Shown: in pieces, positions 27,474 through 58,950 of the stretch
How positions within the stretch are numbered: the first letter of the stretch is position 1
Layout of the letters: the number at the start of each line of letters is the position of its first letter
Assembly: GCF_011799805.1 (NCBI RefSeq)
Contig: NZ_WXUB01000001.1
Coordinates: 1,054,001 to 1,118,000, forward strand
Source: Maribellus sediminis
Lineage (GTDB): Bacteria; Bacteroidota; Bacteroidia; Bacteroidales; Prolixibacteraceae
Reading direction: 5' to 3'
Length of the DNA: 64,000 nt
Translations under genes and position numbers: made by a program
The notes under the pieces: model-generated
Told to the model about the DNA's origin: nothing
The model's database searches: none
What the model saw: the letters and a program-made list of their open reading frames with translations, nothing else

Positions 27474-29225
27474 ATGGATACAATAAATCTTACGATAGAT
27501 AATAAAACACTGGTGGTGAAGAAAGGCACCACTATTCTGGAGGCAGCTTCGGGGATCGGGATCGATATTCCAACCCTTTGCCACATGAAACTCGACGACC
27601 TGAACATTGAGAACAAACCGGGAGGGTGCCGCATTTGTGTGGTGGAAGTGAATGGAAGAAGAAATCTTGCTCCGGCGTGTTGCACCGAAGTGAACGAAGG
27701 AATGGAAATCAATACCCACTCGATGCGTGTGATAAATGCACGTCGTACCGTAATGGAATTGATTCTTTCCGACCATCCTTTCGACTGTTTGATCTGTGCC
27801 AAATCGGGAAACTGCGACCTGCAGGATATGGCACACAACCTTGGAATACGCGAGATTCGCTACCAGGGCGAACAATCGACTTACCGCGAAGATACTTCGC
27901 CGGCCATTATCCGCGAAGTAGACAAATGTATCATGTGCCGCCGGTGCGAAACCATGTGTAACGAGGTGCAAACGGTTGGTGTACTTTCTGCCATTAACCG
28001 TGGATTCGAGTCGGTGGTTTCACCGGCTTTCGAAATGAACCTCGATCACTCGGTATGTACTTATTGCGGACAGTGTGTGGCGGTTTGTCCCACCGGAGCA
28101 TTAACCGAAGTTGATGAAACCGGTAAAGTCGTACGTGCACTTTCTGATCCAACTAAAACGGTGATCGTGCAAACTGCACCTGCAGTACGCGCTGCTTTGG
28201 GCGAAGAATTTGGCATGGAAGCCGGAACACTGGTTACCGGCAAACTGGTAGCTGCTTTACGTCGTCTTGGATTCGACCATGTTTTTGACACCGATTTTGC
28301 TGCCGACCTCACCATTATGGAAGAAGGCACTGAATTATTAAATCGTCTTGGAAAACATTTGAGCGGAGATAAAGATGTAAAACTTCCGATTTTGACTTCG
28401 TGCTGTCCGGCCTGGGTGAAGTTCTTTGAACACCAGTTCCCGGAAATGAAAGATATTCCTTCAACAGCGCGTTCGCCACAGCAAATGTTCGGAGCCATTG
28501 CCAAAACGTATTTTGCCGACCAACTCGGCGTAAAACGCGAAGATCTGGTAGTGGTTTCAATCATGCCTTGTGTGGCTAAAAAATACGAATGTGGCCGCGA
28601 GGAATTCAAAACCAACGATAATCCGGATGTGGATCACGCTCTCACAACACGTGAGTTGGCTGCTTTGATCAAGCTGTCGAACATCGATTTTAAATCGCTG
28701 CCGAACGAGGAGTTTGATAATCCTCTTGGAGAATCAACCGGAGCCGGAGTTATTTTCGGAACAACGGGTGGTGTAATTGAAGCGGCTGTTCGTACAGCCT
28801 ACGAAATTCATACGAAGAAAGAATTACCTCGACTCGATTTTGATGAACTGCGCGGAATGGAAGGCATTCGCGAGGCAACTATCGACTTCGACGGGCTTCC
28901 AATAAAAATTGGAATTGCTCATGGTCTTGGAAATGCCCGGAAATTGCTGGAAGATATTCAGGCCGGGAAAAGCGAATTCCATGCCATTGAAATTATGAGC
29001 TGCCCCGGTGGTTGTATTGGCGGCGGTGGTCAGCCATATCACCATGGTAATGCCGATGTGCTTAAGCAAAGACAAAAAGCGCTGTACACTGAGGATAAAA
29101 ACAAAGCTATTCGCAAGTCGCACGAAAATCCTTACATCGTGAAATTGTACGAAGAGTTCCTGGGAAAACCGATGAGCGATAAAGCGCATCATCTGTTGCA
29201 CACCGAATACTTTGACAGAACCTAG
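27474..29225 (+). CDS. hydA: [FeFe] hydrogenase catalytic subunit HydA (group A, M3-type)
   Basis: 583 residues. In order: a [2Fe-2S] domain (Cys36, 52, 55, 69/70), a His-ligated [4Fe-4S] (His101, Cys105/108/114), two [4Fe-4S] clusters (Cys152/155/158/162 and Cys195/198/201/205), and the H-cluster domain with intact L1 TSCCPAW (Cys310 proton transfer, Cys311 ligand), L2 MPCVAKKYE (Cys366) and L3 EIMSCPGGCIGG (Cys510, Cys514), then the small-subunit-like C-terminus. All catalytic residues are present, in contrast to the sensory homologue at 22244. It makes or uses H2 with HydB and HydC in fermentation. The maturases HydEFG are not in the window. A mobile element begins 1 bp after the stop. Confidence 0.97.
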   Translation: MDTINLTIDNKTLVVKKGTTILEAASGIGIDIPTLCHMKLDDLNIENKPGGCRICVVEVNGRRNLAPACCTEVNEGMEINTHSMRVINARRTVMELILSDHPFDCLICAKSGNCDLQDMAHNLGIREIRYQGEQSTYREDTSPAIIREVDKCIMCRRCETMCNEVQTVGVLSAINRGFESVVSPAFEMNLDHSVCTYCGQCVAVCPTGALTEVDETGKVVRALSDPTKTVIVQTAPAVRAALGEEFGMEAGTLVTGKLVAALRRLGFDHVFDTDFAADLTIMEEGTELLNRLGKHLSGDKDVKLPILTSCCPAWVKFFEHQFPEMKDIPSTARSPQQMFGAIAKTYFADQLGVKREDLVVVSIMPCVAKKYECGREEFKTNDNPDVDHALTTRELAALIKLSNIDFKSLPNEEFDNPLGESTGAGVIFGTTGGVIEAAVRTAYEIHTKKELPRLDFDELRGMEGIREATIDFDGLPIKIGIAHGLGNARKLLEDIQAGKSEFHAIEIMSCPGGCIGGGGQPYHHGNADVLKQRQKALYTEDKNKAIRKSHENPYIVKLYEEFLGKPMSDKAHHLLHTEYFDRT

Positions 29226-29226
29226 T

Positions 29227-29653
29227 AGTCATTGGTCATTAGACAATAGTCATTAGGATATAAAGAAGGAAATCATGAGGTTAGAAGATTTAGTTGTATA
29301 TCAGTTGGCAATGGAAATTGGAGAAGAAGTTTTTGCTATTGTTGATCAGTGGGAAAGCTTTCATAAATGGACAACTGGCAAACAACTTGTTGAAGCTGCT
29401 GATTCTATGGCCTCGAATATCTCAGAAGGATATGGAAGGTATTTCTATAAAGAAAACAAGCAGTTTCAATACTATTCAAGAGGATCTCAAAGTGAGACAA
29501 GAACCTGGTTACAAAAAGCAAAAAACAGAAAGCTGATAGATGAGGAAACTCATCACGGATTGATAGTAAAGCTGGATGAACTGGGTAGGCGACACAATAA
29601 TTGTATCAAATCAATTGGAAAGACTGATGACCAGTGACAATTGACTAATGACT
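29227..29653. mobile_element. IVS-like element with imperfect terminal inverted repeats inside the hyd operon
   Basis: The left end (29227-29257, AGTCATTGGTCATTAGACAA...) aligns with the reverse complement of the right end (29624-29653) at about 23 of 30 positions. The ends are made of degenerate GTCATTNGTCATT units. The interior is occupied by one gene for a four-helix-bundle protein of the family encoded in 23S rRNA intervening sequences. The element separates hydA from hydC, beginning immediately after the hydA stop and ending about 55 bp before hydC. The transcript ends could pair into a long stem. No target duplication or transposase is seen. Confidence 0.65.
29275..29637 (+). CDS. four-helix-bundle protein (23S rRNA IVS / S23 family)
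   Basis: 120 residues, the usual length for the family. Hallmarks are the N-terminal RLEDLVVYQLAMEI, the central AADSMASNISEGYGR and the GSQSETRTWL segment. Members are found as open frames of intervening sequences within 23S rRNA genes and, as here, as scattered single genes in Bacteroidota; related proteins (Avd) act with diversity-generating retroelements. They form pentameric basic bundles that may bind nucleic acid. There is no reverse transcriptase or rRNA here. Its presence between hydA and hydC, inside inverted repeats, and unlike any hydrogenase subunit, points to insertion. Confidence 0.9.
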   Translation: MRLEDLVVYQLAMEIGEEVFAIVDQWESFHKWTTGKQLVEAADSMASNISEGYGRYFYKENKQFQYYSRGSQSETRTWLQKAKNRKLIDEETHHGLIVKLDELGRRHNNCIKSIGKTDDQ

Positions 29654-29707
29654 GTTCTTCAAGGAAAAAAGAATTATTGATTTAAAAAAAATAAAATCAA
29701 GAAAGAG

Positions 29708-30214
29708 ATGCCAAAAATAAAACTTGCTGAAAATACAGTAGAACTTATAAAAGCCGTTTGTGCTGAGTTTGAAAATAAGGAAAGCGAACTGATAAACGTA
29801 TTGCACGGGGTACAGCAGAAACTGGGTTATTTACCGGCCGAAGTGCAGGAAGTAATTGCCCGCGAACTGAACATGTCGGTGGCGAAAGTTTACGGAGTTG
29901 TTACCTTCTACAGCTTTTTTACCATGATCCCGCAAGGTGAATTCCCAATCTCGATTTGTATGGGAACCGCCTGCTATGTTCGTGGTGCCGAGCAGGTGCT
30001 TAACGAATTTAAACGCCAGTTAAAAGTTGAAGTTGGAGAATCAACCGAAGACGGAAAATTTTCGATCAACTGTTTGCGTTGCGTTGGAGCCTGTGGGCTC
30101 GCGCCGGTAGTTACGGTTGGTGAAAAAGTTTACGGACGTGTTTCTCCTTCAGAAGTTAAAAAGATCATCGCTGAATACCGTGAAGGTTGTGCTGATGATG
30201 CGAAAACAGCCTGA
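29708..30214 (+). CDS. hydC: NADH-linked [FeFe] hydrogenase, HydC/NuoE-type subunit
   Basis: 168 residues, a NuoE-type thioredoxin-like [2Fe-2S] protein. The helical N-terminus (LINVLHGVQQKLGYLPAEVQ) and VYGVVTFYSFF are family landmarks; the cluster ligands are the Cys pair in CMGTACYVRGAE and the pair in CLRCVGACG. It completes the HydABC complex with the subunits encoded at 25660 and 27474. The gene comes last, separated from hydA by 482 bp that contain the IVS-like element, so its expression depends on read-through of that element or on its own promoter (none recognised). A strong terminator follows. Confidence 0.93.
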   Translation: MPKIKLAENTVELIKAVCAEFENKESELINVLHGVQQKLGYLPAEVQEVIARELNMSVAKVYGVVTFYSFFTMIPQGEFPISICMGTACYVRGAEQVLNEFKRQLKVEVGESTEDGKFSINCLRCVGACGLAPVVTVGEKVYGRVSPSEVKKIIAEYREGCADDAKTA

Positions 30215-44744: not shown

Positions 44745-45461
44745 TGCGGTGCAAAAGTAATGTTCAAAGTTCAATGTTCAAAGAGATAAGTTCAGAGTTC
44801 AGAGTTCAGAGTTGCGAGCTTAGAGCAATGAGCCGCGAGCTTGTGTCTCGTTCCAAATTGGATATTGAATATTCAGCATTGAATATTGGGAATTATTTGC
44901 TGCTGATCTGTAGAGATCGCGTCGGTCTCCGTCAGCTGACGGATTCCTCGAGATGACCCCGCTCTCGCACGATTGTATCGTGTGAATTAGCCCACAGGAC
45001 GGAAGCGTCGGAAGCATGTTAGGAAATGTCAGTCACTACGATTAAGGGCTAAAGCCCGTTTTAGCATAGTTCTGCTTTACCCCGGGCTTAAGCCCGGGGT
45101 AATTCAAGACTAGTGAACCCCGGCTTTAGCCATTAAAGTCCGGTATTCGTGTTCCCGCTGCCTCGCTGTTGCGCGATTGTAAAGCTGAAGCAATCTCTTT
45201 TATTTAGCCGCGAGCTTCGAGCAGTGAGCCACGAGCTTGTTTGGCTTTCCAAATTGGAAATGGGCTATTCAGAATTCAATATTGAAAATTGTTTGGCTAA
45301 CTCTGAACACGTCTGCTGGCGCATGCCGGGCTGACACTGAACTCTGAACTCTGAACATTGAACACTGAATACCGTGCCTTCCGCCTCCTTAACATAGTTT
45401 AATCTTTTTTGATGCCTGTTAATAGCTTTATTCCTGACCTTTGGAAAAACAAAGCCAGCTT
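44745..45461. other. repeat-rich intergenic region, 717 bp
   Basis: Starts with short tandem TTCAGAG-type units (44790-44812), then a degenerate GCGAGCTTG...CAAATTGGA...AATATTGG unit (44815-44895), then the dispersed 280-bp repeat copy A (44984-45272). No gene is supported. Confidence 0.6.
44984..45272. repeat. dispersed repeat, copy A (about 285 bp)
   Basis: Nearly the same sequence occurs at 53734-54008. Shared parts include GCCCACAGGA, AAGGGCTAAAGCCCG, the palindrome CCCCGGGCTTAAGCCCGGGG, ATTCAAGACTAGTGAACCCC, CCGGTATTCGTGTTCCCGCT, GCGCGATTGTAA and GAAGCAATCT followed by TTTATTTAGC. It has strong self-complementarity and no coding potential. Confidence 0.8.
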
Positions 45462-48608: not shown

Positions 48609-49193
48609 AGGGAATAAAGAACCGTTCTTTATGAGTAGCGACACATAGAGAACGGTTCTCCCGAACGTCATTGAATAGTGGAGATTGTCTACCGCCGGAG
48701 GAATGAGATCGCTTCTCCCGAGGGTTCGGGATCGCGATGACGATGGATAGGTTTTTTATGCAGCGGACAATGATATATTCGGTTCGGAGATGATTTTTTA
48801 CTGTCCGCTGCCGACACCCTTTATAACAAATGTCATTGCGATCCGATCCGTCAGCCGACGGAGAGGAGAAGCAATCTGTTTTATTTAGCCGCGAGCTTGT
48901 TTGTCGACCCAATTGGAAATTGGATATCCTGAATTGAATATTGGAAATTGCCCCGCAAACTTAACCCTGAACCCTTTCCTCTTTGCTCTCTGCCCTTTGC
49001 GCTCCGCCCTCTGCCCTCCGCTCTTTTCCCTCTGCTGTTATCTTATGTTTAAAAACTTTTGCTAAATTCGTGGGTATTAATGTGGTGATACCCCGTGACC
49101 GAACAGCAGCGAGAGATTTTTTTCACCCTTTAGTATCTGATGATTTATAGGAATTTCCTGTTAAGAATTAATTTACAATAAAAGCATTTAGAT
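48609..49193. other. repeat-rich intergenic region, 585 bp
   Basis: Holds hairpin repeat copy 2, a TGTCATTGCGA...GAAGCAATCT repeat (about 48830-48880), a GCGAGCTTG...AATATTGG unit (48890-48950) and a pyrimidine-rich tract of CTCTGCCC-like words (48965-49040). The last 130 bp are AT-rich upstream sequence of the NACHT gene. No gene is supported. Confidence 0.6.
48611..48660 (+). repeat. hairpin repeat family GAACCGTTC, copy 2
   Basis: Same layout as copy 1 (AAGAACCGTTCTTTAT, GTAGCGAC, AGAGAACGGTTCTC), starting 2 bp after the GH43 stop. The similarity with copy 1 continues about 40 bp further (GTCATTGAATAG). Confidence 0.75.
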
Positions 49194-52079
49194 ATGGTTA
49201 TAGAATCTGCTTTGTTCATTTCGTTTGCGACATGGTTAGGGAGTAAGATAGCTGATAAAGGTTTTGAAGATATTTATTCAAAACTAACACAAGATGATAA
49301 GTTTGATAAACTATTTTTGCATTGTGTTAACGAAACTTCGAAAAAATTCGAAGAAAAATATCCAGATATACTTGGTAATTCGATAAGTTATTTTTTTACA
49401 CAAGAAGAAGTTTTTGACGAATTATGTAAATTATTATTCGTTAACCAAGATATTAACTTAGATATTATCTCAGATTCTTTTTACGAGGCTACTTTACCTA
49501 AAGACTTTATTCTTGAATTTGTTTCAGAATTGAAGAATACCTTAGCTTCTAAGCCAGATTTTCAGGCACTTCTGTCAAACAAGGAGTTGTTTATCGCAGT
49601 AAAAGGAATTTCTAAGGATTTAGATGAACTCACTAAAAATTCAAGTCTGACCCTACAGGAAGTAAATCAAATAAAGAATATCCTTCAAGAGAGATTTAAA
49701 AACAAATTTAGTTTAGAAAGCTTTTTGTCTTTGTACACTAAAAATCTTGTAAATAATTTAGGAATTCTAAATTTTATCGGACTCGGTATCGATCCATCAA
49801 TTAAGAAAGGAAAAAGAAAGGATTTAGAAAAAATCTTTGTAAAACCAAATTTAAGGTTAATTAGTAAGTTTCATATTGAAAAAGAAAAGAATGGTAAGAT
49901 TAAGTATTTTGATGAGGAAAACGAGTTTGGTGAAGGAATTATAATATCTTACGAGCACTTATTTGACAGGCCATATAATTATGTGATATTAGGTAGTCCT
50001 GGTGCAGGCAAATCATTATTAATAAAATCAGTTGTATGCCATATTGCAAATAATGAACGAAAACAATTTTCAAACAAACGAATATTATCTTATATACCCT
50101 TTAGGATTGAACTAAAGAATTATTTATCATATAAAAGAGAAAAAGGAGGTAATCTCTTAAAGTATTTAACCGTTCTTTTGGAAGAAGAATATTCGGTCCC
50201 TAGTATTTTGGAAGAAAATTTATTTTCTGTTTTTTCGAATGAAAAAGTAATTGTATTTTTTGATGGACTAGACGAAATATTCAATGCTTCGGATAAAGGA
50301 CATATAAAAAATGATATCCAAAATTTTCATAATATTTTTCCAAAAATAAGATCGATCACAACTTCTAGATTTATCGGTTACAACGAAGTCAAATTGGATG
50401 AAAAATTATTCTGTGAATTAAATATATTACCATTCAATCCCAAACAAGTAGAAGAATATGTAAAGAAATGGTACAATATTGAAGAAGAGGATGAAAAAAT
50501 AAGAGAAATTGAAACACAGGATTTCATCTCTAAGATGAACAACGTAGATGGAGAATTATTATCCAATCCTTTACTGTTGTCACTGATTGTGATATTATTT
50601 AGGAATAACCTAAAAATTCCTGAATCAAAGCTGGAAATTTATCAAAGTTGTACCAATACTTTAGTTGATAAATGGGATGCGAGTAAGAATTTAGAGTTAA
50701 AAATAAGTGAAGAGATATTACAGAAAAAGGAACCAATTCTTGCAGATTTAGCATTCTGGCAATATGAACAGTTAAGTTCTAGAAAGACTAATATAACATA
50801 TCAGAGAGCTAAACAAATAGTTTCAGAATCACTCATCAGAAAAAAAGTCGCTGACGAATTCAATTGTGACCAATTGGCTGATTCGTTTCTAAGCTACGCC
50901 CAAAAACGATCAATTTACTTTGATAACAATTTTACACATAAAACTTTTCTTGAATATTATACCGCATATTGGATTTATTCAAACATTGAAAAGAAACATA
51001 ACATAAAGGAACGTAATAAGATTATTAAGAAATATATTAACAATCCTTTTTGGTTTATTGTATTGGAACTTCTTCTTAATATGATTGATAAAGACCAACC
51101 AGACTCTGAAATTATAGATTCAATTTTTGCTCAGCATATTGGAAGTAGTCTTTCACTGTCTTTTTTGATTTATATTGTACCAAACATAATAAATGTAAGT
51201 TCTGAAATTGTTATCAGGCTATACAAGGAAAGTATTTTTTATCTAATATCTACTATTGAAATAGATCAAAAAAGAAAGGATTTATTTGAAAAGATAGTTA
51301 AAAATGCACTCACATTTGAACATGGGGCCAAACTCATTACTGCATTCAACCAGATAGAAGAAAAAGATAGAAATTTAAATTATTATATTCTTATTAACGA
51401 AATGGAGTTTAGTCCAAAATATGCTGAAGTGAATATAGGTTTCCAATTCATAAAAGATTCTGAGCATTATAAATCTTTTATAGTAAAAGATCCATATTTA
51501 TTCCAAATAGATAGAACGTACATATCTGATGAAATAGAACAAGAGACTTTTGTTGAAAAGACAATTGAATACCTCAGATTATTTAATCATGAAGAAATAT
51601 TTCAAAATCATCCAAGTTTATATGATTCTTATTCGCTGGGATCATTCATGGGATATTTTTTCTATTTCCAACTTAGAAGTCGAAATATAGAAGATTTAGC
51701 ACATAATATAGCGTTGTTAGAAAAGGAATCTTTATCATATATTTCATTGATTCGCTTTGTTGTAAGTAGAAGTTTTTATTATTCAAAGCCAGAAATTGAA
51801 TCATTAAATTATTTATGTGAAAGGATTATCCATACAGAAACACACGATAAAATAAAATTACTTTTTATTTCAATCTTAAAAGAAATTCTTTCAAACAGAT
51901 TTATTCAAAGAGGTGATAAAATTGAGATTGAAAACTTAGCAACTACATCTAAACTTAAAAGCCTTTTGAGAAAAGTTAAAAGAATGAAAAATAACAAAAA
52001 ATTTATAGAAACGGCAGTGAAGGAATTAAAACTTATTGATAGAGACATTATTGAGGTTATGGAATCAATTGGCAATTGA
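49194..52079 (+). CDS. NACHT-domain NTPase, candidate anti-phage (NLR-like) protein
   Basis: 961 residues. The N-terminal about 190 residues are helical and unassigned (SFATWLGSKIADKGFEDIY). The NACHT module has Walker A GSPGAGKS (267-274), Walker B VIVFFDGLDE (352-361), sensor TTSRFIGY, and the winged-helix-side pattern LLSNPLLLSLIVILFR followed by KLEIYQSCTNTLVDKWD. The C-terminal half (about 540-961) is helical, likely a repeat sensor. Bacterial NACHT proteins of this architecture are known single-gene phage defences. It is much more AT-rich than its neighbours, with codons such as AAA, ATA and TTA dominating, and lies in repeat-rich DNA, which indicates transfer. No effector such as a nuclease is recognised. 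Confidence 0.87.
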   Translation: MVIESALFISFATWLGSKIADKGFEDIYSKLTQDDKFDKLFLHCVNETSKKFEEKYPDILGNSISYFFTQEEVFDELCKLLFVNQDINLDIISDSFYEATLPKDFILEFVSELKNTLASKPDFQALLSNKELFIAVKGISKDLDELTKNSSLTLQEVNQIKNILQERFKNKFSLESFLSLYTKNLVNNLGILNFIGLGIDPSIKKGKRKDLEKIFVKPNLRLISKFHIEKEKNGKIKYFDEENEFGEGIIISYEHLFDRPYNYVILGSPGAGKSLLIKSVVCHIANNERKQFSNKRILSYIPFRIELKNYLSYKREKGGNLLKYLTVLLEEEYSVPSILEENLFSVFSNEKVIVFFDGLDEIFNASDKGHIKNDIQNFHNIFPKIRSITTSRFIGYNEVKLDEKLFCELNILPFNPKQVEEYVKKWYNIEEEDEKIREIETQDFISKMNNVDGELLSNPLLLSLIVILFRNNLKIPESKLEIYQSCTNTLVDKWDASKNLELKISEEILQKKEPILADLAFWQYEQLSSRKTNITYQRAKQIVSESLIRKKVADEFNCDQLADSFLSYAQKRSIYFDNNFTHKTFLEYYTAYWIYSNIEKKHNIKERNKIIKKYINNPFWFIVLELLLNMIDKDQPDSEIIDSIFAQHIGSSLSLSFLIYIVPNIINVSSEIVIRLYKESIFYLISTIEIDQKRKDLFEKIVKNALTFEHGAKLITAFNQIEEKDRNLNYYILINEMEFSPKYAEVNIGFQFIKDSEHYKSFIVKDPYLFQIDRTYISDEIEQETFVEKTIEYLRLFNHEEIFQNHPSLYDSYSLGSFMGYFFYFQLRSRNIEDLAHNIALLEKESLSYISLIRFVVSRSFYYSKPEIESLNYLCERIIHTETHDKIKLLFISILKEILSNRFIQRGDKIEIENLATTSKLKSLLRKVKRMKNNKKFIETAVKELKLIDRDIIEVMESIGN

Positions 52080-56922: not shown

Positions 56923-58836
56923 ATGAAAGTAAATTGTTTAACGGCCCTGTTGCTGGTGGTGTTCAGTTTAAACGTATTCGGCAAAGAGGAGAAGAAATAT
57001 CTGGTTTCCGATATTCCGGAAATCCTGAAAGAGGATGCTAATTCAGTAATACGGGTCGACGAGAAGCTCTACACGGTTGTTGATAATGAACAACTGAACC
57101 TGACACGTAAATTTGCCATCACCATTCTTAATTCCCGGGCCGAAGACCTGGCATCGTTTGGAATTTACTACGATAAATTCATGAAGATCGGTAAACTGAA
57201 TGCACGTATTTACGATGCCGAAGGTAATTTAGTTGATAAAGTAAAGTCGTCGGATATTATGGATCTTAATATTGCAGCGGGACAGTCGGCCGCCATCGAC
57301 GATTCGCGGATAAAAACCTACACCGCAAGACACAACAGTTTCCCCTTTACCTTCGAGTTCGAATACGAAATTGAAATAAAGGCAACACTGTTTTATCCCG
57401 ACTGGCAGCCGGTTAAAAATTATTATCAGTCGGTAGTCTTTGATATGCTTTCGATTCAGGTTCCTCCGGGAATAGATTTTAGCTATAAGGAAAGCAACCT
57501 GACAACTCCGGTAGTGATGGAAGAGGTAGACGGAGCGAAAAAATACACCTGGAAACTGAACGATTTTCAGGCTTTGGAACCTGAGCCGTATTCGCCTGAC
57601 ATTTCTGAATTCACCCCTTTTGTATATACCCGGGCAAAGGATTTTGTAATGGATGACTACCCCGGCACCCTCGATTCGTGGGCCACGCTTGGTCAGTGGG
57701 TTGAGACTTTAAACCGTGGGCGGGACGAGCTTAGCCCTGAAACCATTGCCAAACTGAATGAATTGGTTGCCGGCTGCACCACTACCGAAGAAAAGGTGGC
57801 GAAGATTTATAGTTACCTCCAGTCGAATACACGTTATGTAAGTATTCAGCTGGGGATTGGTGGCTGGCAGGCCATTCCGGCGAATGAGGTGGACGAAAAA
57901 GGCTATGGCGATTGTAAGGCCTTATCGAACTACATGAAAGCGATGTTGCAGGCTGTTGGTGTCGATTCGAAATATGTATTGATCTCGGCCGGTTCAAGCG
58001 CCCGGTCATTGGATGAGGAGTTTCCAAAATCGCAGTTTAACCATGCCATTGTGATGGTTCCCAACGAGAATGACACCATTTGGCTCGAATGTACCTCGCA
58101 GCGAAATCCTCTCGGTTACCAGGGCCGTTTTACCGGTGCCCGAAAAGCACTGGTTGTTGATGGAGAAAAGACCAGGCTGGTAGAGACCACACATTATTCG
58201 GCCGAACAAAATGTGGTAAAAAATGTGGGCGAGTTCAAATTACTGGCCGACGGTAGCGCAACGGTATCTACGCAAAGTAGTTTTGGCGGTTTGGATTACG
58301 ACGACATCAGAAGCATGTACTTTGAAGGCGCCGAAGAACAGGAAAAGTTTTTGTATGACTGGATTGATTTAAATGGAGTGAAAATAGACAACTATTCACT
58401 AAAACGTGAGGAAGGCAGAATCCCGCAGTCTGAACTTCAGCTGAATATGCAGGTAAGAAATTACGGCACCTCCATGAACGACCGCATGTTTGTTCCGGTA
58501 AATGGATTCAACAGGTGGACGAATGTTCCCAAACGAATTCGCGATCGTAAGACCGATATTGTAAAACGCTATTCATTTACCGAAGAAGATGAATACACCT
58601 ATGTTCTTCCCGAAGGTTTCGAAATTGAAAGCATTCCTGAAAACATAAATATTGAAAACCAGTTTGGAACGTTTAATACGGCCACGAAAGTGGAAGACGG
58701 GAAAATTACGTATTCCAGAAAGCTGGTACTGTTCGAAGGAACTTTTCAAAAGGAAACTTATCCCGATCTGATCGATTTTTATAAGAACATTTCAAAAAGT
58801 GATAAAAACTCGTTTGTATTGAAACAAGGGGCGTAG
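56923..58836 (+). CDS. secreted DUF3857 / transglutaminase-like protein (second of pair)
   Basis: 637 residues, signal peptide (NCLTALLLVVFSLNVFG). Same architecture as its upstream neighbour: DUF3857 (LNLTRKFAITILNSRAEDL, FPFTFEFEYEIEIK), then a transglutaminase core with a complete triad: Cys in KGYGDCKALSNYM, His in FNHAIVMVP and Asp/Glu in WLECTSQ. The intact triad contrasts with the first protein, where the His is not evident. The two genes are 3 bp apart and surely cotranscribed, suggesting an active/inactive pair acting together in the periplasm (inference). Confidence 0.88.
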   Translation: MKVNCLTALLLVVFSLNVFGKEEKKYLVSDIPEILKEDANSVIRVDEKLYTVVDNEQLNLTRKFAITILNSRAEDLASFGIYYDKFMKIGKLNARIYDAEGNLVDKVKSSDIMDLNIAAGQSAAIDDSRIKTYTARHNSFPFTFEFEYEIEIKATLFYPDWQPVKNYYQSVVFDMLSIQVPPGIDFSYKESNLTTPVVMEEVDGAKKYTWKLNDFQALEPEPYSPDISEFTPFVYTRAKDFVMDDYPGTLDSWATLGQWVETLNRGRDELSPETIAKLNELVAGCTTTEEKVAKIYSYLQSNTRYVSIQLGIGGWQAIPANEVDEKGYGDCKALSNYMKAMLQAVGVDSKYVLISAGSSARSLDEEFPKSQFNHAIVMVPNENDTIWLECTSQRNPLGYQGRFTGARKALVVDGEKTRLVETTHYSAEQNVVKNVGEFKLLADGSATVSTQSSFGGLDYDDIRSMYFEGAEEQEKFLYDWIDLNGVKIDNYSLKREEGRIPQSELQLNMQVRNYGTSMNDRMFVPVNGFNRWTNVPKRIRDRKTDIVKRYSFTEEDEYTYVLPEGFEIESIPENINIENQFGTFNTATKVEDGKITYSRKLVLFEGTFQKETYPDLIDFYKNISKSDKNSFVLKQGA

Positions 58837-58950
58837 TAAAGAGCAAAGAGCAAAGAGCAGAGGGCAGAGAGCGAAGAGCACAGAGCACATAGCAGGGAGC
58901 TAATAATATGTTTTTAAGGAACCGTTCTTTTTAAAGAGAACGGTTTCTTC
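58837..58950 (+). repeat. purine-rich AGAGCA tract and hairpin repeat copy 4
   Basis: 58845-58900 is a run of AGAGCAAAGAGC-type words, the complement of the CTCTGCCC-type tract at 48965-49040. At 58916-58950 lies a shortened member of the GAACCGTTC hairpin family (AACCGTTCTTTTTAAAGAGAACGGTT). Confidence 0.6.

Follow-up and report, generated by a model that had tools for sequence, protein, structure and literature searches.

The 427-bp segment between hydA and hydC in Maribellus sediminis belongs to a real family of IVS-like elements in operon spacers, in which an S23 gene is enclosed by two complementary arms made of degenerate repeats, mostly of 7 nt (heptads). We give an even chance to the proposal that this family extends across the Bacteroidota and that its members, S23 gene and complementary heptad arms together, are processed in operon spacers in the manner of an IVS. 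Since related units occur in many other operons, our data suggest a widespread and poorly known class of small genetic element.

The unit between hydA and hydC

The window, that is, the whole stretch of 64,000 nucleotides that was analysed, lies on contig C5 of the M. sediminis genome (G000:C5; genome of about 5.6 Mb). Profile searches identified a hydrogenase operon with a NuoF-like HydB encoded upstream, followed by hydA (27474–29225, + strand), encoding the [FeFe] hydrogenase large subunit, and hydC (29708–30214, + strand), encoding a NuoE-like thioredoxin-fold [2Fe-2S] protein. The hydA–hydC spacer measures 482 bp and houses a 120-codon S23 gene (29275–29637, + strand, sense to the operon) together with two inverted arms. 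The left arm (29227–29256, + strand) starts a single base after the hydA stop codon (TAG, 29223–29225), consists of AGTCATT-like degenerate 7-nt repeats and coincides with an array of 7-nt periodicity (lag 7) starting at 29222. The right arm (29624–29653, + strand), with a lag-7 array starting at 29619, overlaps the last codons of the S23 gene, whose stop codon (29635–29637) falls within it. Between the right arm and the start of hydC, the outer spacer (29654–29707, + strand) is similar in sequence to that of genome G004, whose contig is 100% identical over 3504 bp to locus L070 of Maribellus sp. CM-23 and whose S23 is 93% identical to that of the hydA–hydC element.

Each arm is 30 nt long, the two are separated by 367 nt, and 23 of the 30 positions (77%) are complementary, exactly as the initial annotation had claimed for imperfect inverted ends of about 30 bp; pairing as RNA, with G–U pairs included, could involve 25 of the 30 positions by manual count from the sequence. 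The best local complementarity between the two flanks of the element has a score of 16, reached by 1 of 5000 mononucleotide shuffles. Only 2.7% of the right flanks of other elements pair equally well with the left arm, and 0.9% of the left flanks of other elements do so with the right arm. In addition, the 427-nt RNA is predicted to fold more stably than shuffled versions of it (z = −3.95, 100 shuffles), and the outer stem is present in both the MFE and the centroid structure, so that a stem between the arms is predicted to form.

No rRNA was matched at 29000–30000 up to E = 1, the element being located between hydA and hydC. A search for a transposase within the unit was also negative, the S23 gene providing the one family match between the arms; an additional 80-aa ORF, left outside the family profiling, overlaps it in another frame. 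A match to Rfam RAGATH-12 near the site was rejected, being below threshold (E 0.44) and outside the element.

The S23 ORF matches PF05635 (E 2.9e-25; 89 bits against a curated cut-off of 33.8) and TIGR02436 (85.7 bits against a curated cut-off of 24), and its AlphaFold2 model (pLDDT 93.2) has four helices, in agreement with the four-helix-bundle gene of the S23 family that had been proposed between hydA and hydC. The closest structure to the model is 2GSC (Xcc0516; TM 0.90/0.94), followed by 2RLD (BT_0352) and then by Avd of diversity-generating retroelements (DGR; 4DWL, 8UB7), all proteins of the same fold. While the function of the S23/PF05635 family is listed as unknown, Avd acts with a reverse transcriptase according to the titles of its two entries. 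Xcc0516 is described as forming a pentameric ring (PMC4990558).

Between G000 and G004 the S23 genes differ by a dN of 0.041 and a dS of 1.05; among the seven S23 orthologues dN ranges from 0.04 to 0.24, with dS above 1 or saturated, and by these substitution rates the protein is under purifying selection. For the same pair of genomes, dS amounts to 1.8 for hydC and 2.6 for hydA. The lower dS of S23 hints at a transfer of this gene between lineages, although dS values of this size are near saturation.

Related units in other operons

Nine PF05635 matches were found in the M. sediminis genome by profile search; within its genus, 36 of 37 genomes have at least one, with 272 matches in sum; 45 of the 61 Bacteroidota genomes sampled have such matches. 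From the genus and 13 named Bacteroidota loci (one of which duplicates G004), 126 S23 ORFs were collected, and 118, representing 44 sites, were retained after dropping duplicates and short flanks. A phylum-wide sample of 29 loci provided 28 elements.

The 70-nt flanks of the 118 elements have a clear 7-nt periodicity. Specifically, the identity at lag 7 is 0.42 on the left and 0.40 on the right, followed by 0.38/0.37 at lag 14 and 0.35/0.36 at lag 21, the remaining lags giving about 0.275–0.32; inside the S23 genes, identity is about 0.26–0.30 at all lags. Comparable lag-7 values were observed in the 28 phylum-wide elements (0.41/0.38). By eye, the repeat unit is 8 nt long in some elements, such as L075–L082, and 6 nt long in a few, and the upstream reading frame often ends at the edge of the left arm or within it. 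The initial annotation had suggested a search for GTCATT-type ends around other S23 genes; such ends are not a general signature, other element lineages using other heptads.

What is common to the elements is the fit between their own two arms. When left and right flanks were compared, with 30 nt of the S23 gene included in both sample sets, the complementarity per site averaged 17.3 with the own partner and 9.3 with partners from other sites (p = 6e-14), and exceeded the 95th percentile of the other-site pairings at 37 of 44 sites and in 88 of the 118 single elements. In the phylum-wide sample the corresponding means were 16.7 and 8.7, with 20 of 28 elements above the 95th percentile; thus 7 of the 44 sites and 8 of the 28 phylum-wide elements missed it. 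RNA duplex energies followed the same pattern (−35.0 kcal/mol with the own partner and −23.3 kcal/mol with partners from other sites), own pairings being better by at least 5 kcal/mol at 34 of 44 sites, and at 12 of 44 sites the consensus heptads of left and right arms differed by no more than one base, compared to 2.6% of the other pairings. In the lag, G–U/A–C, arm-similarity, duplex-energy and consensus-heptad tests the right flanks began after the S23 stop codon, so that right arms overlapping the gene end, as in the hydA–hydC element, were clipped. In conclusion, comparison of the flanking sequences shows that the arms of each element fit each other better than they fit those of other elements.

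The units are placed in operons of diverse function. The flanking genes, profiled at 10 of the 44 sites, include those for succinate dehydrogenase A/B, rnf genes, 2-oxoacid dehydrogenase E2/E1, PAPS-reductase/GTPase genes, an ABC-2 permease pair and 3-HAO/amidohydrolase genes, and S23 genes within rRNA were not found at the gathering threshold at the 4 loci tested out of the 29 of the phylum-wide sample. The idea of an IVS-type unit in a protein operon, with an S23 gene in sense orientation between complementary ends, is borne out by these data. Three S23 genes lie within about 4 kb at G000:C9:286101–290179 (L002–L004); the first, L002, belongs to the same context cluster as L046, which is flanked by ABC-2 permeases.

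In the set from the genus and the named loci, both neighbours were called at 43 of the 44 sites (by the majority of members). At 37 of them the neighbours are co-directional, and here the S23 gene is always in sense orientation (37:0); the remaining sites are convergent (2) or divergent (4). Among the 24 phylum-wide elements with both neighbours called, 19 are sense, 3 antisense and 2 convergent, 4 further elements lacking a called neighbour. Because co-directional neighbours are frequent in the 464-kb baseline (201 of 267), the preference for such spacers (37 of 43) is not in itself significant (p = 0.17). What stands out is the sense bias, which an ordinary operon gene would show too.

The element is sporadically present among relatives. 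HydC-like matches were present in 54 genomes, and the hydA–hydC junction was compared in 40 of them (35 from the same genus and 5 from outside it). An S23 gene occupies 7 of these 40 junctions, all seven within the genus, while the other 33, which provide the element-free junctions that the initial annotation had suggested looking for, have spacers of 22–107 bp, the hydA stop codon being counted; loci L071 and L072 share the context cluster of the element and lie outside the 40 junctions. An element present in all relatives with diverged ends, the pattern named beforehand as contrary to an IVS-type insertion, was thus not what we found, and three of the four end pairs scored were above the cut-off. 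These four scores cover four of the seven carriers (L015 was dropped for its short flanks, and L037 and L039 are without a score) and amount to 16 in G000, 17 in G004, 14 in G024 and 12 in G009; only the last is below the 95th percentile of the other-site pairings, which is 13.

On a tree of HydA and HydC (30 rows, of which row L015 is 29% filled) the seven carriers require seven changes. G004 and G024 carry the element, and their respective counterparts G032 and G030 lack it; within each of these two pairs the HydA and HydC proteins are almost identical. The DNA of the paired genomes is 84–100% identical per 100-bp step, reaching 98 and 100% in the steps adjoining the spacer for G004/G032 and 98 and 97% for G024/G030, and the whole spacer is different. 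The converse was observed at an rnfG–rnfE-like site, where G032 has an S23 gene between FMN-binding (rnfG-like) and Rnf–Nqr genes and G004 has 36 bp between the flanks matched by blastn and no S23 gene. Since at neither site can the empty spacer be derived from the occupied one by merely removing an insert, a clean insertion and a replacement of the whole spacer, perhaps via recombination in the genes on either side, are equally likely. No target site duplication was seen by eye when occupied and empty forms of these two sites were compared. The junction of G006, in which the left arm of a G024-like element is fused to the right outer flank of that element, is likely a deletion scar, to judge from its sequence. 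As a separate observation, some S23-free hydA–hydC spacers (for example L014, L019, L022 and L023) hold, by eye, degenerate arrays of about 8 nt resembling AATGCTTT, another class of short-unit spacer that is exchanged with the S23-bearing one at this junction.

The type of arm was found to be associated with the lineage of the S23 protein, also at unrelated sites. We considered 6553 pairs of elements in strictly different contexts (flanks unmatched by blastn and by tblastx, other site cluster, other locus). Arm similarity was 14.05 below 40% S23 identity, 16.0–16.2 at 50–60%, 17.8 at 60–70% (44 pairs), 23.0 at 70–80% (17 pairs) and 23.3 above 80% (3 pairs), and it was flat (10.3–12.8) in a control with one arm reversed. 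The trend carries more weight than a p value, because pairs of elements are not independent. As arm similarity rises with S23 identity, the S23 gene and its arms seem to travel together, and arm sequence seems to be partly preserved at distances at which synonymous sites are saturated.

The same comparison speaks to the age of such movements. There are 23 different-context pairs with at least 70% S23 identity, of which the stricter list retains 20 between different loci, with a maximum of 83.9%; the two pairs above that value are each within one locus (L096 and L134). A recent move to a new site was therefore not seen, no pair differing in both context and locus exceeding 84% identity among the 6553 strict pairs, and recent transposition was rejected on the basis of that maximum. 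As many as 193 pairs from the same context have at least 70% S23 identity, and S23 sites are mostly inherited in place.

Ribosomal IVSs and other known relatives

The closest described counterpart is the 23S rRNA IVS of Coxiella burnetii, which is 428 nt long, with a 28-bp stem, heptamers before the S23 start and a sense ORF, and which is cut by RNase III at the start of the first repeat (Warrier 2016, PMC4990558). The two elements agree in length (428 nt and 427 bp) and in complementary ends of about 28–30 nt, in heptamers adjoining the S23 start and an S23 ORF sense to the host transcript, and in sporadic presence with signs of horizontal transfer (PMC4990558). They differ in their host, which is 23S rRNA in Coxiella and an operon spacer here, so that nothing would hold the cut pieces together in our case. 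In addition, the Coxiella stem has one mismatch and one bulge, whereas 23 of 30 arm positions match here; RNase III cutting is described for Coxiella and, by analogy, predicted for the hydA–hydC element; and the S23 gene, under purifying selection here, is decaying in Coxiella according to the authors (PMC4990558). In their view the Coxiella S23 protein is probably not made, which stands against a role of the protein there (PMC4990558).

Heptamers and S23 genes have each been reported in other settings. Direct repeats of the heptamer TAACTGA are found in Beggiatoaceae, Cyanobacteria and some Bacteroidetes (MacGregor 2015, PMC4679880); like the arms, they are intergenic tandem units of 7 nt, often near gene starts, in spacers that differ between close relatives. 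Unlike the arms, they consist of a single fixed unit in almost always direct arrays, and an S23 gene or an inverted partner is not mentioned in the accessible part of that report (PMC4679880). Genes annotated as 23S_rRNA_IVP occur in cas loci, for instance between cmr3 and cmr2 in Pleurocapsa, where they likewise sit between operon genes and were interpreted as a function seen with CRISPR-Cas; since the printed coordinates leave a downstream gap of about 6 nt, a full right arm after the Pleurocapsa gene is unlikely (PMC3936711). In Flavobacterium columnare an S23 gene lies between those for guanylate kinase and nicotinate adenylyltransferase (PMC5524665). Further mentions are rRNA insertions of CPR bacteria with 23S_rRNA_IVP (PMC11270868) and a figure legend naming a 23S rRNA IVP (PMC10910872).

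The initial annotation had suggested that a protein-coding mRNA would be a new niche for such an element. The presence of S23 units in operons stands, while the novelty does not: such a location is common in Bacteroidota, and S23 genes adjoining operon genes are already in print, in the accessible parts of those reports without being interpreted as IVS-like units (PMC3936711, PMC5524665). Among titles and the beginnings of abstracts, no account of operon-borne S23 genes flanked by inverted heptad arms was found, which is weak evidence of novelty because subscription papers and preprints were mostly uncovered, and the accessible part of a flavobacterial transcriptome paper (PMC9723704) has no mention of S23, four helix, heptamer, RNase III or repeats.

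More than 25 years on, neither the role of S23 proteins nor the origin of IVSs is considered clear (PMC4990558). If the S23 gene and its lineage-matched heptad arms are a unit, the arms would be a concrete and testable partner for the protein, with many natural copies available for comparison (the 272 matches in 37 genomes), and matched pairs with and without the element at the same operon junction would become usable. In that case, what is annotated simply as 'four helix bundle protein' would belong, in many Bacteroidota operons, to an embedded unit for processing or mobility.

Proposed processing in RNA and competing explanations

According to the proposed mechanism, the unit would be read with the operon and be gained, swapped or lost as a block. 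The hydA–hydC element would be transcribed together with hydBAC, and its arms would pair into an imperfect stem of about 30 bp enclosing the S23 message. By analogy with the IVSs of 23S rRNA, RNase III would cut within this stem, so that the S23 mRNA would be freed and polar effects limited; this fate of the S23 message is hypothetical, as is any effect on HydC, such as the tuning of subunit ratios that the initial annotation had suggested. The S23 protein, by homology to 2GSC, would be a ring of four-helix bundles that may recognise its own heptad arms and help the unit to persist or to move. This IVS-like reading at the RNA level is favoured mainly because size, stem, heptads and orientation match the Coxiella IVS.

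A bolder version, which we put forward tentatively, holds that S23 genes mark a widespread class of mobile elements of mRNA that are processed as RNA, that each S23 ring reads the heptads of its own arms and that the rRNA IVSs are those members located in rRNA. Were it true, a stem cut by RNase III would make insertion into operons nearly harmless, and a class of mRNA elements would cover orphan heptamer arrays, geneless hairpins and S23 genes in cas operons.

Two tests of the arms gave no signal peculiar to RNA. A bias towards wobble pairs was not observed, either over all elements (118 G–U against 103 A–C mismatches) or with one element per site (59 against 50), and the energies of sense and antisense arm duplexes showed no difference. 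Because neither the mismatch counts nor the strand energies differ, RNA is not singled out over DNA. A function of the arms as all-frame stop signals is suggestive only: stop codons in all three frames occur in 15 of 39 right arms against 5.0 expected, and in 11 left arms against 7.4, and the antisense readings are also raised (11 against 6.3 and 12 against 3.2).

These null results fit a strong rival, a mobile element at the DNA level, which we consider possible. Here the arms would be terminal inverted repeats, S23 a DNA-binding accessory protein, the RNA fold incidental and geneless hairpins non-autonomous relatives. Consistent with this, arm type and S23 type are common to unrelated sites, and hairpins of heptads without a gene were seen by eye among 30 spacers bounded by genes that we take to be trmB and ATL, in G000, G018, G027 and G028, the same spacer holding S23 genes in G032 and G024 and unrelated palindromes in several others. 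Against it, a strand-indifferent element would not be expected to show the sense bias (37:0 and 19:3), unless other orientations are purged by selection; target duplications were not seen; and the unit has no other ORF as a possible transposase. Taken on their own, the trmB–ATL spacers (L203–L232) are hypervariable: depending on the species, they contain heptad hairpins, S23 genes or a palindrome (CATTTCGAA...GAGAAATCTGT type) that recurs among them. The geneless hairpin in this spacer was also considered as a remnant of the sdhA–sdhB element, which has similar heptads, and this was rejected, the site being different.

Another reading, in our judgement improbable, is that S23 is an ordinary gene of the operon and lies in a spacer prone to repeats, where slippage and quasi-palindrome correction create and homogenise the heptad arrays, with neither excision nor a special unit. 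It draws on the heptad arrays found away from S23 genes. We scanned 464 kb of the M. sediminis genome (the window, 200 kb of C5 and 200 kb mostly around S23 genes) and found 18 lag-7 arrays scoring at least 20/28, compared to 0–5 for each of the lags 4–6 and 8–13; 14 of the 18 do not adjoin an S23 gene, and three inverted pairs are without one. In genome G023, which is 96% complete and lacks S23 matches, the density of arrays is 2.35 per 100 kb (213 kb scanned) compared to 3.88 in G000, so that a strict dependence of the arrays on S23 was rejected. Geneless arrays may be remnants, non-autonomous relatives or independent repeats. The prevalent inheritance of S23 sites in place and the heptamer repeats of other bacteria (MacGregor 2015, PMC4679880) also agree with a repeat-prone spacer. 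Such a spacer would not lead one to expect that arms several hundred nucleotides apart pair with their own partner better than with others, that arm type tracks the S23 lineage across different contexts, or that the element is present in one of two close genomes and absent from the other. Finally, S23 as a dedicated regulator of the hydrogenase operon is very improbable: its reading frame and synteny are conserved in 7 genomes, but it is missing from 33 of the 40 hydA–hydC junctions, close relatives of carriers included, and has relatives in sdh, rnf, 2-oxoacid dehydrogenase, PAPS reductase/GTPase and ABC transporter neighbourhoods.

The window contains further arrays and one large ORF worth recording. 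A long intergenic region at 44770–45370, beside a presumably MutS2-like gene, holds nested heptad arrays without an S23 gene, including an inverted pair at 44789 and 45334 with a score of 21. Another heptad array, at 58835–58905, starts from the stop codon of the upstream gene (which ends at 58836), again with no S23 gene and with no good inverted partner within 1 kb, and a similar array is found at 48984. At 49194–52079 lies an ORF of 961 aa with the P-loop GSPGAGKS, which we take to resemble a large NACHT/STAND-type NTPase.
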